Assembly (NCBI GenBank): GCA_018399495.1
Contig: JAGYOG010000001.1
Span: 124,001-188,000, forward strand
Reading direction: 5' to 3'
Length of the DNA: 64,000 nt
Source: Sphaerochaeta sp.
GTDB lineage: Bacteria > Spirochaetota > Spirochaetia > Sphaerochaetales > Sphaerochaetaceae
In this document: one piece after another, positions 1 to 6,516 of the stretch
Position numbering within the stretch: position 1 is the stretch's first letter
How the letters are laid out: every line of letters begins with the position of its first letter
Program-made: the position numbers and the translations under genes
The notes under the pieces: model-generated
The model's input: only the letters and a program-made list of their open reading frames with translations
What the model was told of the DNA's origin: nothing
Database searches by the model: none

Positions 1-53
1 TTCAATCCAGGAGTATCTCCTCCAGAGGTTAGAATCCCGATCAACTTACTCAT
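1..53 (-). CDS. pfkA: 6-phosphofructokinase, N-terminal fragment (cut by window edge)
   Basis: Only the first 17 codons are inside the window. They read MSKLIGILTSGGDTPGL, the glycine-rich ATP-binding start typical of PfkA-family phosphofructokinases (GGDxPGxN). The ATG at 53 is preceded by AAAGGAG at a normal distance. The upstream parA stop codon lies 5 bp away, so this gene is probably the last one of, or follows directly on, the ppk-CHAD-parA operon. Whether it is an ATP- or PPi-dependent enzyme cannot be told from this fragment. Confidence 0.8.
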   Translation of the reverse strand, partial: MSKLIGILTSGGDTPGL

Positions 54-58
54 CGATA

Positions 59-835
59 TTACTCCTTTTTCTCAGAACGCCCACTCGGTGAACGCTCTAT
101 CAGAAATGGTACCAGCTCTTCGTACAAACCACGGAAGGCAAGAGCACTTTTCCCCTTTGGATTGCTTGTTACTACCGGTTTCTGTATCTCACCCATTTTC
201 TCTATCTCACTAGCGAAAGGGATCACACTTTGCAATGCCTCGCTTCTGTGCAAAAGATCCAATGCTGTCTTCACTTGTAGCTTTTTTCTCCTGTCGAGCA
301 TGGAAACAACAAGATGCACCCTCGTATCCTTCTGCTGTAAACGTTCCAGCTCACCCCGCAATTGGTCATAGGCAAGTACCGCAAAGGGAGTGGGGACAAC
401 CGGAACCAACAGCATATCAGAGGCATACAGTACATTTTCACTGACTAGGCTCATGGTAGGGGAAGCATCGATGATGACCAGGTCATACGTGGATCTCAAC
501 TCCTCCAGTCGTTTTTCCAACCGATGGTGTGAGTGCTTCTTTGCATCAAAAAGAATGGAAAGATAGCGATAAGCCATAGAAGAAGGCAGTACATCGAGTG
601 AGGAGAAACTGGTGGCCTGAATCTGCTTTTTCAGCTGCTTCCCTCCCTTCACCAATGCTCGAGCATTGTGGCTCTTCTTTGGCTTTACATCCAGCAAGTA
701 GCTACTTGAGCCCAAGGGGTCAAGATCGACCAACAAGGTTCGTTGTCCGGCCATCGCAGAGAGCACTGCCAGATTCACACTGATGGTGCTCTTGCCTACT
801 CCCCCCTTGATGCTGTATACGGCCAGTGTTGTCAT
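59..835 (-). CDS. ParA/MinD-family ATPase in a polyphosphate operon
   Basis: 258 residues. The deviant Walker A motif KGGVGKST lies at residues 10-17, and DLDPLGSSS and VIIDASP supply the remaining nucleotide-binding motifs of ParA/Soj proteins, which form ATP-dependent dimers on the nucleoid or a surface and position cargo. The start at 835 is chosen because GGGAGGAG precedes it and its ATGA overlaps the stop of the CHAD gene. No parB or parS-like partner is seen in the window, and the neighbours are CHAD and ppk, so the cargo may not be DNA. A chromosome-partitioning role remains possible. Confidence 0.85.
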   Translation of the reverse strand: MTTLAVYSIKGGVGKSTISVNLAVLSAMAGQRTLLVDLDPLGSSSYLLDVKPKKSHNARALVKGGKQLKKQIQATSFSSLDVLPSSMAYRYLSILFDAKKHSHHRLEKRLEELRSTYDLVIIDASPTMSLVSENVLYASDMLLVPVVPTPFAVLAYDQLRGELERLQQKDTRVHLVVSMLDRRKKLQVKTALDLLHRSEALQSVIPFASEIEKMGEIQKPVVTSNPKGKSALAFRGLYEELVPFLIERSPSGRSEKKE

Positions 836-1818
836 ACCATCTCCTCCCAATATTCACTACTCACTTGTCGATACTCACCCGCAAGATGTTTTACTTCCTT
901 TTCTAAGTCAACCAATATCCTCAAGGATTCTATTGGTGCCTTTTTTTGCTTCAAAAGTAGATCCTGAAGTAGGATAAGATCATGCCATCGACCTAAAATC
1001 TTCTCGAGGGAATAGAGTTGCTTATCCTGTTTTACTGATGCCATCTCACTCACTGCAAGCAAAGAACGTACCCAACGCAGCACCTTGTGCATTGCCTGCA
1101 CATCCCTCTCTGAGTGTACCTTGTGAACTGCCTTAACCAATTTTCTGTGAGCCTTTGCTACCAGAACCTTTGGATGATACCCTGAGAAGGCAAACCGGTT
1201 CTGCTCTAAAAGTTCCTGAAGATCAGAGACAAAGGAGGCAGAAAGGGTATCCTTCAGTTTTACAAGATGTTTCTTGAACTTCAGCCGTTTCTGCTCTTGC
1301 GCCAGGCCTCTCTCGTCCAACAACTGAAATAGTACCTGATCATCACGAACTTTCCCTGCATAGTTCACCAGTTTCTTGAGCAATCGTTTCAAATCTTTCT
1401 GTCGCTCTTTGGAAAGTGTTTTCCCAATACGTGGAACTATCATATAGAGATTGCACAACGCTGTTCTGAATGCCTGCATCGATTTCATGTCTTCCAGATT
1501 TGCAATATGTTCAGAAAGGATTGCAACCTGTTTCTCACACCAACCAATGATGGGACTGTTGCACATCTCCCTGAAAGCCGGCACGGTAAGCAGTCCTTCA
1601 AGTTGAGCCTGGGTCTCAGAAAGTGGAAAAAGTTCCAGACGCAACTCCTCAGGAAAGTATCTCACTTCCCCTACAGGCTGTTTGTTCAGAAACAGTGTAC
1701 CCTCAAGCGGGATGGATGCTTCCATCCAGGCAATTCGATAGGGAGAGAAAGCCTGTTCCCAAGTTGCAGGAGCAGACTGGGTTTCGAATAACAGATAGTA
1801 CGGGCCGGTATTGTTCAT
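832..1818 (-). CDS. CHAD domain protein
   Basis: 328 residues. The C-terminal two thirds form an all-helical, lysine- and histidine-rich CHAD domain; conserved pieces such as HKVLRWVRSLLAVSE and LEKILGRWHDLILLQDLL are readable. CHAD domains bind inorganic polyphosphate and can localise proteins to polyphosphate granules. There is no N-terminal CYTH domain; the first 100 residues are unassigned. The gene overlaps ppk upstream by 4 bp and parA downstream by 4 bp, so the three are translationally coupled. The CHAD call rests on pattern and on the ppk context. Confidence 0.8.
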   Translation of the reverse strand: MNNTGPYYLLFETQSAPATWEQAFSPYRIAWMEASIPLEGTLFLNKQPVGEVRYFPEELRLELFPLSETQAQLEGLLTVPAFREMCNSPIIGWCEKQVAILSEHIANLEDMKSMQAFRTALCNLYMIVPRIGKTLSKERQKDLKRLLKKLVNYAGKVRDDQVLFQLLDERGLAQEQKRLKFKKHLVKLKDTLSASFVSDLQELLEQNRFAFSGYHPKVLVAKAHRKLVKAVHKVHSERDVQAMHKVLRWVRSLLAVSEMASVKQDKQLYSLEKILGRWHDLILLQDLLLKQKKAPIESLRILVDLEKEVKHLAGEYRQVSSEYWEEMV

Positions 1819-3878
1819 ATAGTTTCCTCCAACTGACTCTGATACCAGAGATACAAATCCCGTTGTGCACGAGGCTCATTGTTTTCACCAGTCTGAAGAC
1901 GCTGGTTGTAATTTTCTTCATGAATACTGAAAGAAGAGGCGGTGTCATTCCAGTGTGCCTGCAGGAACACCTCCAGTTCTTCCTTGATCCTGTCATCAAA
2001 GACAGGAACCATGACCTCGATACGGGTGTCAAGATTTCGTTCCATCCAATCCGCAGAACCAAGGAAATACAGTGGATTGCCCTTGTTGTGAAACTTGACC
2101 ACTCGAGTATGCTCAAGATACCGGTCAATCAAGGCCTTTCCCCGGAAATTGCTTTGTTCTGGGTAGAGTACCATGGAACATATTCCCCGGATCATCAAGG
2201 TAATGGATACTCCACTACGCTCAGCCTTGCATAAATGCTTAATCATTCCCTCATCAACGAGGTTGTTCAACTTGAGCGTAATTCCTGCAGGCCTACCCTC
2301 CCTCGCTTCCTCCATCTCCTTCTTGATCAGTGAGATGAATCGTTTGCGGGTATGGAAGGGAGAAACAATCAGATACTTGAACTTGATATCTGCAAACCCA
2401 CGGTCCAAGAGGGTGAAGAGTAAGTCAATTTCTTGGGTAATCTTTGGGTTGGAGGTAAGCAGAAGATGGTCACTGTACTGACTCGCCGTCACTTCGTTGA
2501 AATTCCCTGTTCCAATGATTGCTATCTTCTTCTGCTTCTTTCCACTGAGCCGAGTAATGAGACCAAGCTTGCTGTGTACCTTCATCCCCTCAACCCCATT
2601 GATCAGATTGATGTGGCGTTCACGGGTGAGGGTCTCAGTCCACTGCATGTTGATCTCCTCGTCAAACCGCGCCTGCAGCTCCAGGTACAATACGATCTCC
2701 TTCCCGTTCCTTGCTGCATTTCTGAGTGCATTGATTACATTGGATTTCTCCGGTACGCGGTAAAGCGCCATCTTGATTCCCTGCACTGTCCTATCCAAGG
2801 CTGCTTCCCGCAACAGGTCTATGATGCAATCATAACTGTGGTAAGGAAGTGTCACCAAGTGGTCTCGCTCTTCAATCTGATCAAGCAGACTTCGATCCTC
2901 CTTCAAGGTGTGGTGAGGCAAGGGAGGTTGCTCCTCAAAATACAGCTGGTCATTCCCGACCTTGGGGAAATGTAAAAAATCCCTTGCATTGTGATACCTA
3001 CCCCCGGGAATGATGATCCTGCACTGTTTCAGCTGTGCATGTTCCATGAAATAATCAAGCATAGTTTTGGGCAACTCCCGGTCATAGACAAACCTGACCG
3101 GATCACCTTGACTGCGCTGCTTGATGGAAGAGGAGAGTTTCTCATAGAGACTTCTGGTAATTTCATCCGTCAAATCATATTCACCATCACGGGTAATCTT
3201 GATGGTATAAGCATCATAACAGTCATAACTGAATGCCTTGAAGATGTCTGCCAACTTGAATCGGATAATATCTTCAAGGGCAATGAAGTGATGCCAGCCA
3301 CCACGAGAAGGCAGTTGCACGTACCGCTTAATCAACTCACTGGGAACCTCGATCAAGGCATAACGGAAATCCTTCGGATCGTCACTGTAGTACATATGCA
3401 CAGCAAGATAGAGCGTTACGTGCTTGAGATAAGGAAATGGTAGTTTTGGCTCAAGGAGAATAGGAAACAGGCGGTTTCTGAGTGTATGACGGAAAAACCC
3501 TTCCAGAAATTGTTTTTGCTCATCGGAAAGTGTTGATTCATCCACTATGGCTATATGATGTGTCCTGAGTGTTCTGAAGAGCTGTTCAACCACCCGATCC
3601 ATTCGATCATTGAGTCGTTTCACTTCCTTGAGAATCTGTTTGATCAAAGTTTTGGGATTGCTACTCTCCTTGAGTTTATAGTGCTCAGGATCAAGAAGAG
3701 CACGATGAATCGAGCCGACCCTTACTGCATAGAATTCATCCAGGTTGGAAGAGAATATCCCGATGAACTTTAATCGCTCCATCAAGGGAATATTCGGATT
3801 TTCAGCACTCATCAAAACCCGTTCATTGAAACTCAGCCATCTCAGTTCGCGATTCACATATACTTTTTTTGAACCCAT
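1815..3878 (-). CDS. ppk: polyphosphate kinase 1
   Basis: 687 residues, normal for PPK1, which reversibly makes polyphosphate from ATP. The N-terminal domain opens with NRELRWLSFNERVL. The phosphohistidine candidate is H435 in GMKVHSKLGL, and the second conserved histidine lies in FHNKGNPLYFLGSADW near the C-terminus. A predicted promoter lies about 40 bp upstream, and CHAD and parA follow with overlapping ends, suggesting one transcript. No frameshift or missing motif is seen. Confidence 0.95.
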   Translation of the reverse strand: MGSKKVYVNRELRWLSFNERVLMSAENPNIPLMERLKFIGIFSSNLDEFYAVRVGSIHRALLDPEHYKLKESSNPKTLIKQILKEVKRLNDRMDRVVEQLFRTLRTHHIAIVDESTLSDEQKQFLEGFFRHTLRNRLFPILLEPKLPFPYLKHVTLYLAVHMYYSDDPKDFRYALIEVPSELIKRYVQLPSRGGWHHFIALEDIIRFKLADIFKAFSYDCYDAYTIKITRDGEYDLTDEITRSLYEKLSSSIKQRSQGDPVRFVYDRELPKTMLDYFMEHAQLKQCRIIIPGGRYHNARDFLHFPKVGNDQLYFEEQPPLPHHTLKEDRSLLDQIEERDHLVTLPYHSYDCIIDLLREAALDRTVQGIKMALYRVPEKSNVINALRNAARNGKEIVLYLELQARFDEEINMQWTETLTRERHINLINGVEGMKVHSKLGLITRLSGKKQKKIAIIGTGNFNEVTASQYSDHLLLTSNPKITQEIDLLFTLLDRGFADIKFKYLIVSPFHTRKRFISLIKKEMEEAREGRPAGITLKLNNLVDEGMIKHLCKAERSGVSITLMIRGICSMVLYPEQSNFRGKALIDRYLEHTRVVKFHNKGNPLYFLGSADWMERNLDTRIEVMVPVFDDRIKEELEVFLQAHWNDTASSFSIHEENYNQRLQTGENNEPRAQRDLYLWYQSQLEETI

Positions 3879-3915: not shown

Positions 3916-3945
3916 AGTATACGGGCTCCCAAGAAGCACTGTCCA
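3916..3945 (-). promoter_or_regulatory. predicted sigma-70 promoter for ppk-CHAD-parA
   Basis: On the minus strand TGGACA, an 18-base spacer, then TATACT. It ends 37 bases before the ppk start codon. Pattern match only. Confidence 0.5.
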
Positions 3946-4096
3946 CGATGAATTATAAGAAATTTGGTAAATATACTATAATAATATCAATTTTATTCAT
4001 TTTCGTTCGGTATCAACACTTTAGAAACCTTCTGCTCCCTGAGGGTATGTTCCCCTGCTGTTTTTTGGTATATTGGAGAACGTGAACGGAGGATTC

Positions 4097-5296
4097 ATGG
4101 AAACATTGCTTACACGTTATGCACGTCTTGTTGTTGAAGTGCAATTGAAATTACGCGAGGGGGACAGCCTCTCGATAAACAGTGACGCGAGTACCCTATC
4201 TTTTGCCCGGTTGCTTGCACAGACGGCCGCTATTGCCACTAGGCAGACGGTCACCATCGTACATACCAATCATGGGAAGGTGGTTGACGCCATACCCATC
4301 GAACCAATAGAGAAAGAAATCTTCCGTCCTCCCGTACAGGGATCCGTCATGTGCCATATTATAGACCTCGACGGACATCCCTACCTAACCCCAACTGATC
4401 TCAACACTGCAGCAGATGAGGTTACAACCTTGGGAAAATATGGGTTGCTTGCTGATCCCGTTTTCCTTGACCGGAGAATTGCAGTTCCTTGGGCGAATAT
4501 TCCTTATCCCGGCCCTCGCTGGGCTTTGCAGTTGCTTGGTTCCCAAGCGAGCGAAGATGATATGTGGAAACTATTCACTGCGCTTTATCGTATTGAAGAT
4601 GAGCACGCCTTTCGTTTTTGGGAAGAGCAAGGGAACCTCCTGGCATACAGAAAACAAAAACTGAATGAACAAGGACGCTGTATCCTGCATATGGTTGGCG
4701 ATGGCTGGCAGATGGAAGCTATCATGGCTAGGGACACAGTCTGGGCAGGAGGAATACAAACCTTGCCAAGCCAACGTTCGTTCTTCTCTTCCCTACCGGT
4801 ACAAGCGCTCCATGCCGCCATTGATGCAAACAGTGCCAAGGGAACATTCACATCCTCCAGGCCCTTCTATGTACTTGGAAAGGAAGTCAAGGGAGCTCGC
4901 TTCACTGTAGAAGATGGAATGGTCATCGACTATACAGCGGAGACAGGAGAGGATGCCCTGGAGGTGCTCTTTTCCGTGGATGAGGGAGCAAAACGTGTCA
5001 GTGAAATCGCCCTTGCGGACCATGACACGGTTGAAAGCCACTATCTAGGAAAATCGATTCATCCCCACTTTGCTCGAGAGATGACGAGTATGATTGTGCT
5101 TGGAGGACTCTCCCTGGACAATCTGACAACGCAACAAAATGAAGAGGATATCAATAAAAGTTCGCTCTGCACGTCTCTGGTGAGAGTAGCTATCCCAATC
5201 GGGGACAGCCACCTTTCGGTAACACTTCACAGGGAAGATGGAACTGATGCCTCTCTCATGGAAGAAGGAATATTCACGGAGGAGGAACTGATATGA
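4097..5296 (+). CDS. M29 aminopeptidase paralog, metal ligands lost
   Basis: 399 residues from the ATG preceded by CGGAGGATTC. It aligns along its whole length with the next gene, an intact M29 (AmpS/AmpT-type) metallo-aminopeptidase. At ligand positions it differs: NLPTEEIF is SLPVQALH, SCHLALG is SMIVLGG, and MHVDF is VRVAI. Only the glutamate in SEIALAD matches. It is therefore probably not a peptidase by itself. It overlaps its paralog by 4 bp (ATGA), so the two products are likely made together; M29 enzymes are dimers, and a regulatory heterodimer is a reasonable inference. Alternatively it has another substrate or is decaying, although the frame is fully open. Confidence 0.8.
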   Translation: METLLTRYARLVVEVQLKLREGDSLSINSDASTLSFARLLAQTAAIATRQTVTIVHTNHGKVVDAIPIEPIEKEIFRPPVQGSVMCHIIDLDGHPYLTPTDLNTAADEVTTLGKYGLLADPVFLDRRIAVPWANIPYPGPRWALQLLGSQASEDDMWKLFTALYRIEDEHAFRFWEEQGNLLAYRKQKLNEQGRCILHMVGDGWQMEAIMARDTVWAGGIQTLPSQRSFFSSLPVQALHAAIDANSAKGTFTSSRPFYVLGKEVKGARFTVEDGMVIDYTAETGEDALEVLFSVDEGAKRVSEIALADHDTVESHYLGKSIHPHFAREMTSMIVLGGLSLDNLTTQQNEEDINKSSLCTSLVRVAIPIGDSHLSVTLHREDGTDASLMEEGIFTEEELI

Positions 5297-6516
5297 ACCA
5301 ACAAGAAATTGAGAGATACGCTGACTTGATCATCCGTAAGGGAATCAACCTACAGAGCGGAAAAGGTGTTGTCATCACCACAGGACCGGGCACCTATTAC
5401 TTCGCCCGTGCGCTGAGCAAGTCAGCTTACCGTAGCGGTGCAAGCTACGTGCAAGTACTGCTTGATGACCTTGATGTCCTCTCTTCCCGCTTACAACATC
5501 AGGATGATGAAGCATTGAAATTCAACCCGCATTTCATCAAGACATTCGACTACGAGTTCGTCAGTGAGGGTTGGTCCCATATCCGGATCGACAGCACTGA
5601 GGAGAGACTTGATCATGCTCCGCTCGATGGTAGGAAGAACCAGATCCTTGGAAAGGCTAAACGGCAGTTCAGTGAAGCAAAAACCAAGAAACTAATGCGC
5701 CATCAACTCCCTTGGTGTGTATGTGTTGCTCCCGGTCCCCTTTGGGCGAAACAAGTACTGGGAGATGACGCAACCACTGATGATCTCATGAAGGTACTTA
5801 CTCCTATCTTGCTCCTTGATGCAAATGATCCACAGAAGGCTTGGGATGAGAAGGCAGTTCTCCTGAAGAAACGCCAAGACTACCTCAATGGACTCGGGAT
5901 CGACACACTGCACTACCAGAGCAGCAAGAGTGACCTGACTATCGGGTTCACAGACAAGGCCCTCTTCACCGGAGGGAGCGAGACACTACCTGATGGCAGG
6001 GAGTTTTTCGCCAATCTCCCCACTGAGGAGATTTTCACTACACCGAACAACCTCCGCGCAGAAGGCTATATTACCACAACCAAACCGGTGGAGGTACTGA
6101 ACACCACCACCGAGGAAGTCCGCTTTGTATTCAAGGATGGAAAGGTGGTTGAGTATCAGGCCAAGGCGGGACAGGATGCGTTGGACAGGTTCTTTGCCAT
6201 TGATGACGGGACGCGTAGACTTGGGGAGGTTGCATTGGTGGATGAGACCAGCCCGATAGCGAAAAGCAATCTTGTTTTCAACTCAATCCTGCTTGATGAG
6301 AATGCCTCCTGCCACCTGGCTCTTGGAGAGGGATATCCCACTGCACTGAAGGATGGTGCAACATTGGATACCAAGGAACAGCTGCAACAAGCACATTGCA
6401 ATACCAGCTTGATGCATGTTGATTTCATGGTAGGCTCCCAAGACATGAAAATCACCGCCTATACAGATGATGGGCATCAAGTAGTGATTATGGAAAATGG
6501 GACGTTTACTTTCTAA
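5293..6516 (+). CDS. M29-family metallo-aminopeptidase
   Basis: 407 residues, usual family length. The expected two-metal ligands are visible: E245/E246 in NLPTEEIFTTP, E312 in GEVALVDE, H341 in ENASCHLALG, and H375 with D377 in NTSLMHVDF; the family tyrosine may be Y348. M29 enzymes release N-terminal residues from peptides in the cytoplasm; there is no signal peptide here. The start codon overlaps the stop of the degenerate paralog upstream. The 3' end overlaps the convergent coaX by 4 bp. Confidence 0.9.
   Translation: MNQQEIERYADLIIRKGINLQSGKGVVITTGPGTYYFARALSKSAYRSGASYVQVLLDDLDVLSSRLQHQDDEALKFNPHFIKTFDYEFVSEGWSHIRIDSTEERLDHAPLDGRKNQILGKAKRQFSEAKTKKLMRHQLPWCVCVAPGPLWAKQVLGDDATTDDLMKVLTPILLLDANDPQKAWDEKAVLLKKRQDYLNGLGIDTLHYQSSKSDLTIGFTDKALFTGGSETLPDGREFFANLPTEEIFTTPNNLRAEGYITTTKPVEVLNTTTEEVRFVFKDGKVVEYQAKAGQDALDRFFAIDDGTRRLGEVALVDETSPIAKSNLVFNSILLDENASCHLALGEGYPTALKDGATLDTKEQLQQAHCNTSLMHVDFMVGSQDMKITAYTDDGHQVVIMENGTFTF

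Follow-up and report, generated by a model that had tools for sequence, protein, structure and literature searches.

We analysed a 64,000-nucleotide stretch of a Sphaerochaeta sp. genome (assembly GCA_018399495.1, contig JAGYOG010000001.1, positions 124,001 to 188,000; the window), in which three consecutive genes on the minus strand encode polyphosphate kinase 1 (PPK1), a CHAD-family protein, and a ParA-type ATPase. An earlier interpretation of the bare sequence (the sequence-only reading) had described these genes as a trio joined by ATGA-type overlaps, with an intact KGGVGKST motif in ParA and no ParB nearby, and had proposed that together they make, coat, and distribute polyphosphate (polyP) granules. 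The trio, both 4-bp junctions, and the motif were all confirmed at the locus, which is laid out as follows (coordinates are those of the window).

1815-3878, minus strand: ppk1, polyphosphate kinase 1, 687 amino acids (aa); PF02503, PF13089, PF13090, and PF17941 over the cut-off
1815-1818, minus strand: 4-bp ATGA overlap between the ppk stop and the CHAD start, read from the sequence
832-1818, minus strand: CHAD-family gene, 328 aa; PF05235 at 22.1 bits (cut-off, 25.6)
832-835, minus strand: 4-bp ATGA overlap between the CHAD stop and the parA start, read from the sequence
59-835, minus strand: parA, ParA-type ATPase, 258 aa, with KGGVGKST; PF13614 at 119.6 bits (cut-off, 27)
841-847, minus strand: GGAGGAG, a ribosome-binding-type stretch just upstream of the parA start, read from the sequence

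The parA start is most likely the ATG at 835 rather than the TTG at 850 given in the open reading frame list. PPK1 is full length, has all four PPK1 domains, and matches TIGR03705 at 652 bits (cut-off, 466).

Within the family Sphaerochaetaceae, CHAD was found in 10 of 139 genomes, from 2 of the 22 genera. All 10 have an orthologous ppk directly upstream of CHAD and parA directly 3′ of it, although parA is decayed in two. An orthologous ppk at ≥50% identity occurs in 14 of the 139 genomes; among these, G108 and G111 are cut by contig ends, and in G089 and G104 pfk adjoins ppk with no CHAD or parA between them. CHAD is thus present in 10 of 14 genomes with ppk versus 0 of the other 125 (P = 1.9 × 10−12 by the Fisher test, uncorrected for relatedness). 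All of these genes are under purifying selection, which is weaker on CHAD and ParA (dN/dS, ∼0.05 to 0.12 together, with some dS values of >1; ∼0.05 to 0.11 for CHAD) than on PPK and PFK (∼0.03 to 0.06 together; ∼0.04 to 0.06 for ppk among congeners).

The gene pair recurs well outside the family. The class sample held 394 genomes, 27 of them with a CHAD match (24 over the cut-off), divided into 10 in the family, 16 others over the cut-off, and G412. The class count left out G412 (a stop-laden fragment) and the family genome G022 (a weak match to another protein), both of which are below the cut-off. For each genome, no more than 6 to 14 first-look ParA candidates were scored in the searches, and a ParA was assigned to the subfamily characterized below if it exceeded 130 bits; the next value, 116.8, belongs to a Soj beside Spo0J. 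Thirteen nonfamily genomes of the class yielded a subfamily ParA. CHAD lies directly 5′ of parA in 6 of the 16 nonfamily CHAD genomes (G216, G333, G152, G342, G146, and G204), and these six are all of the 16 in which a subfamily ParA was found. The order is ppx-ppk-sixA-(CYTH-CHAD)-parA in G216 and CHAD-parA-(CYTH-NUDIX) in both G333 and G152, the latter with pfk and ppk next door in divergent orientation; sixA is a putative name based on PF00300. In a phylum sample of 185 genomes, CHAD also immediately precedes parA in G507, from another class. A plasmid search with the G216 ParA as the query yielded 33 records, 11 of which were examined: all six Paracoccus plasmids among them carry CHAD-parA with an annotated CYTH gene after it, and four of the six also have a NUDIX annotation. 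Phage records gave no match at an E value of 1e-30.

Across 23 CHAD-parA junctions, the two genes overlap by 4 bp (ATGA or GTGA) in 15 and are separated by 0 to 1 bp in 6; the remaining two are an 18-bp gap in G152 and the parA remnant of G090. An order that is met again in two phyla and several families is more than chance. The sequence-only reading would have fallen had the order been unique to this strain, and such a strain-specific curiosity is ruled out by the recurrence of CHAD-parA in the family, in the class, in G507, and on the Paracoccus plasmids. The same reading took ppk-CHAD-parA as the order to look for, which holds for the family; elsewhere, however, ppk lies close to CHAD-parA only in G216 and G152 among the loci examined, and it is absent from the retrieved Paracoccus and G507 stretches. 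The conserved unit is the CHAD-parA pair, not the ppk-CHAD-parA triple. PPK1 as such is present in 21 of 24 chosen genomes.

By motif and phylogeny, the window ParA belongs to a subfamily distinct from Soj. In a tree of 37 rows, the 21 subfamily sequences split from 16 Soj and other ParA sequences with a support of 96/97, with long branches flagged. KGGVGK[ST] is present in 21/21 subfamily rows, and K10-K15, D37, D39, and D123, which include what we take to be the Walker aspartates, are invariant across 15 of them. A stretch of the form [SN]-[ML]-[VIL]-[DE]-x-R-[KR] matches as a regular expression in 20 of the 21 subfamily rows and in none of the 16 others (the printed match in G333 sits elsewhere, its true motif being visible in the alignment), while an IPRxxR stretch is missing from the subfamily and present in 10 of the 16 others. 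R183 and K184, unchanged across 15 members of the subfamily, lie in a stretch that aligns with the MYDxRT region of Soj, which presumably holds the DNA-binding residues of that protein; as a sign of ATP-dependent binding of ParA to a matrix (DNA), they are only suggestive. A profile of the ParA family matches solved ParA and Soj chains with E values of 5.8e-24 and 1.9e-22, respectively.

A chromosomal parAB system (Soj/Spo0J) with its parB elsewhere had also been named as a finding that would undo the proposal. The only ParB_N match in the genome (88.6% complete) is on contig C12, beside Soj, in agreement with the earlier remark that no ParB lies nearby. No parS-like site with up to three mismatches to the sequence that we take as the parS consensus was found in the window or in L002 (20 kb around the operon). 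With ParB and Soj together on another contig, no parS match, and ParA outside the Soj clade, this candidate was rejected. Separately, G101, G110, G113, G114, and G115 have a second ParA-type match ∼157 to 176 kb from the CHAD-linked parA, on the same strand and contig.

We then considered the CHAD protein. A profile of the family CHADs aligns with canonical CHADs over residues 66 to 291 (hhalign probability, 97.2), and homologues of the window protein were found in a Sphaerochaetaceae metagenome-assembled genome and in Sphaerochaeta halotolerans, each 78% identical, in a scan of named genomes. The AlphaFold2 model (mean pLDDT, 89.6; pTM, 0.85; 10-row alignment) predicts a small N-terminal part (residues 7 to 65), which holds most of the strands, followed by a helical CHAD region; the best solved CHAD structure matches at an E value of only 0.0095. 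In the class sample, seven of the eight other family CHADs pass the PF05235 cut-off on their own stretch, and the eighth, from G090, does so only with its neighbours in frame. According to the accessible part of PMC6537752, CHAD (phosin, PF05235) genes often adjoin polyP enzyme genes, and the polyP-binding positions H253, R256, R260, R296, R418, and Y419 of CtCHAD were tested by mutation. We mapped the CtCHAD numbering to alignment columns from motif spacing. All six positions are kept in 10 of the 10 aligned parA-linked CHADs outside the family and in the CHADs of G100 and G101; among five CHADs without parA, three keep six positions and two keep five. The G090 CHAD keeps two (R256 and Y419).

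Eight of the 13 CHAD-parA loci outside the family (six Paracoccus plasmids, G333, and G342) have a small ribbon-helix-helix (RHH) protein upstream of CHAD. The five RHH proteins compared are 51 to 67 aa long and have a lysine-rich N-terminal tail. Their RHH Pfam matches are all below the cut-off, with ParG at 14.3 and 16.0 bits (cut-off, 21.4) in two of the three proteins scanned; a profile search of the window and of the retrieved family stretches gave no RHH match. A disordered N-terminus with positive charge is described as common to the partners of ParA/MinD ATPases (PMC10241942, accessible part), and at these eight loci it is the RHH protein that carries a basic tail.

The reading that we prefer, which we hold to be evenly poised between right and wrong, is that the operon makes polyP and that ParA moves or spaces polyP granules with the CHAD protein as the adaptor. 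It builds on the observed gene content and order, conservation, ParA subfamily, and purifying selection, from which we infer every step of binding, release, and movement. PPK1 would build the polymer, and the CHAD protein would bind the polymer or granule and serve as the cargo adaptor. ParA would alternate between two states, a nucleoid-bound ATP dimer and a free form, with the granule triggering its release, and granules would thereby be spaced or shared between daughters, comparable to the handling of carboxysomes by McdA/McdB. In the fuller loci elsewhere, the peptide that stimulates the ATPase may come from the RHH protein with its basic N-terminal tail, and the polymer may be trimmed by the CYTH, NUDIX, and PPX enzymes. 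In Sphaerochaeta, this stimulation would need to come from the CHAD protein or from an unlinked factor. Gene neighbourhood indicates the cargo of ParA/MinD ATPases (PMC10241942, accessible part), and here the ParA gene is placed with a candidate cargo or adaptor gene in an arrangement conserved across genomes. With a conserved order and a ParA distinct from the chromosomal Soj, the earlier idea of making, coating, and distributing granules seems reasonable. The presence of ppx, ppk, sixA, CYTH, and NUDIX in some neighbourhoods strengthens its polyP side, although its functional side is proposed from genes and the CHAD protein of the window is degenerate at polyP-binding positions.

Several observations weigh against this reading. 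The window CHAD falls below the PF05235 cut-off, and it keeps only two of the six polyP-binding positions (R256 and R296); the CHADs of six core congeners keep three (H253, R256, and R296). The sequence-only reading called the protein polyphosphate binding. Its relationship to CHAD stands, but with several of these positions lost, the binding is unproven for the window protein. As retention of the six positions differs among CHADs, the predicted link to polyP, strong for the module, is weak in the window copy. A decaying gene is countered by the dN/dS of ∼0.1; the loss of binding positions remains. Nor does the window CHAD have the basic N-terminus expected of a partner (K+R, 1 of the first 30 residues), and a strand is predicted from residue 7. 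Furthermore, parA is evidently dispensable: the G109 copy carries a frameshift and an internal deletion, and no more than 98 codons are left of the G090 copy, with CHAD open in both. G218 has tightly joined RHH-CHAD-(CYTH-NUDIX) without ParA (L175:828-3329; the last gene is named from sequence), so RHH and CHAD stay together even where the ATPase is missing. In G324, CHAD, a sixA-like gene, and ppk lie in a row with no ParA between them (L170:8546-13161). The retention of CHAD where parA is broken (G109 and G090) or absent (G218 and G324) fits an accessory role for ParA.

The association is also incomplete from both sides. Ten of the 16 nonfamily class genomes with CHAD over the cut-off have no such ParA next door, and 7 of the 13 with a subfamily ParA have no CHAD match. 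In G500, G519, and G523, CHAD and ParA are on separate contigs. The five other plasmids examined (from Marinobacter, Halomonas, Pontibacter, Sphingomonas, and Novosphingobium) carry a subfamily ParA and no CHAD in the retrieved stretches (tblastn with four CHADs). CHAD-linked ParAs do not form one clade within the subfamily; CHAD-less rows are nested among them, with three changes on the tree, a pattern that fits, without showing, an old link to CHAD with losses. Finally, PPK1 was not found in G342 or G204, both of which are CHAD-parA genomes.

An alternative that we consider improbable, yet the most serious of those weighed, is that ParA is an ATP-driven switch or assembly factor acting on polyP metabolism, be it on how many granules form, on how large they are, or on how active the PPK, CYTH, or NUDIX enzymes are, without moving granules. 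BcsQ, whose gene lies beside that for cellulose synthase, offers a comparison for such a role. BcsQ (TIGR03371) is the second NCBIfam match of ParA, far under its cut-off (73.9 bits; cut-off, 157.85); several neighbours are enzymes of polymer synthesis or hydrolysis rather than segregation genes, and CHAD can persist after parA has been lost. On the other hand, partition ParA and Soj head the NCBIfam and PDB matches, although the NCBIfam match (88.4 bits) is likewise below its cut-off (180), the basic R183 and K184 do not vary among 15 members of the subfamily, and the basic-tailed RHH neighbour fits stimulation of ParA. It seems quite unlikely that CHAD and parA are hitch-hikers in an operon and have only their expression in common. 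The dispensability of parA and the 7 of 13 nonfamily class genomes with a subfamily ParA away from CHAD would suit this explanation, but order and tight junctions recur in several spirochaete families and in Alphaproteobacteria, and a cluster of these genes has been published for Acidithiobacillus.

ParG is a small RHH protein with a flexible basic N-terminal tail and is the partner of a small ParA, ParF. The ParF/ParG system resembles the present loci in joining a small ParA to a small, basic-tailed RHH protein, and it differs in that CHAD stands between RHH and ParA here, that the retrieved family stretches are without RHH, and that ParG scores below its cut-off. That the locus arose when a DNA partition cassette, made up of ParA and a ParG-like RHH centromere-binding protein, acquired CHAD, with ParA segregating DNA and CHAD tethering polyP or being incidental, is very unlikely, since the RHH gene of the eight loci named above (six Paracoccus plasmids, G333, and G342) and its weak ParG scores are set against a locus on the main replicon in single-contig Sphaerochaeta-type genomes (e.g., C1 of G110, 3.26 Mb), retrieved family stretches with no RHH match, the RHH-CHAD of G218 without ParA, and the lack of a canonical parS match.

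A bolder form of the granule-positioning reading, which we offer tentatively and doubt on balance, is a horizontally spread polyP granule partition module composed of a signature ParA subfamily, a CHAD adaptor, a basic-tailed RHH protein that would be ATPase stimulating or DNA tethering, and CYTH/NUDIX trimmers. It would be a plasmid-partition-like machine reused for a mineral-like granule in Spirochaetota and Alphaproteobacteria (perhaps also Acidithiobacillia), and the Sphaerochaeta version would be reduced and drifting.

Some subfamily ParAs have other neighbours. In the f8 genomes G145, G170, and G188, ParA is directly 3′ of a conserved ∼320-aa protein (L162:7826-8785, L163:7333-8292, and L161:9402-10367). 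The three copies align well, and those of L161 and L162 have no Pfam match over the cut-off; the protein is possibly a different cargo adaptor. That it is a hidden CHAD was not supported (hhalign probability, 0.05 out of 100), and tblastn with four CHAD proteins found no CHAD beside the ParAs of f8, f31, f34/f41, and f75 in the retrieved stretches. In G519 (f75), a ParA gene and the gene for a 117-aa protein share one base (L250:4932-6034); this protein, a possible partner, has only weak, below-cut-off matches to coiled-coil-type Pfam families. G519 also has a ParA 3′ of a PGA_cap (PF09587) gene, and the copy in G500 (f75) looks alike (L251:3939-5792 and L253:4723-6589). On the Marinobacter plasmid, a pyruvate kinase gene is directly beside the subfamily ParA, with phbB near (L188:673-5747), and on the Halomonas plasmid, pyruvate kinase is ∼3.3 kb off (L192:101-5624); a link to other storage polymers is possible.

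Two further features flank the trio of the window.

1-53, minus strand: 5′ end of pfk (6-phosphofructokinase); PF00365 at 313.8 bits (cut-off, 30.9)
3916-3945 (L002 19916-19945), minus strand: promoter-like site upstream of ppk, TGGACA-18 nt-TATACT, 10/12, a consensus match only

The pfk gene is the fourth in the row, begins 5 bp past the parA stop, and exits the window (L002 14983-16053); it is likewise 3′ of the locus in the related loci examined. Promoter-like matches in the region (n = 6) are not above those in shuffled sequences (mean, 8.4). On the other side, two tandem M29 aminopeptidase genes with a 4-bp overlap (window positions 4073 to 6516) diverge from ppk, and M29 homologues occupy the same position in related loci.

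The sequence-only reading knew of no described system of this make-up. As to gene arrangement, this is only partly so: a folD-ppk-parA-CHAD cluster, called highly conserved and with a CYTH-CHAD protein, is printed for Acidithiobacillus (PMC10892726 and PMC6416229), and our arrangement is thus partly anticipated. The same gene types stand together there, but the parts of both papers that we consulted give them as gene context for copper or cAMP studies, without a positioning role, and the likeness is one of gene types. We recognised no proposal of ParA-driven positioning of polyP granules in the open-licence literature, judged from titles and abstract openings.

Among positioning systems, McdA/McdB is similar in that a ParA-type ATPase gene lies beside genes for a non-DNA cargo and an adaptor joins the organelle to the ATPase (PMC10241942; PMC13052382, accessible parts). 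The cargo here would instead be polyP, the candidate adaptor is a CHAD protein rather than McdB, and the system is a proposed one. AlgP of Pseudomonas aeruginosa is, like the factor proposed here, dedicated to spacing polyP granules, whose site of formation is the nucleoid region; however, it is a histone-H1-like DNA-binding protein thought to tether and is neither an ATPase nor a CHAD protein (PMC9239181, accessible part). The window protein resembles the phosins, which belong to PF05235 and are often encoded near polyP enzymes, although its own PF05235 match is below the cut-off, and it differs from them in its degenerate polyP-binding positions.

Probably, the locus represents ParA/MinD cargo positioning with a new cargo. 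In the accessible text of a 2025 review (PMC13052382), energy use in polyP granule localisation remains to be seen, and its table gives AlgP for polyP granules with ATP dependence unknown. The conserved CHAD-ParA pair, in some genomes within polyphosphate operons, is a direct candidate for ATP-driven positioning of polyP granules and, if it does act in this way, would extend the list of cargoes handled by ParA/MinD ATPases.

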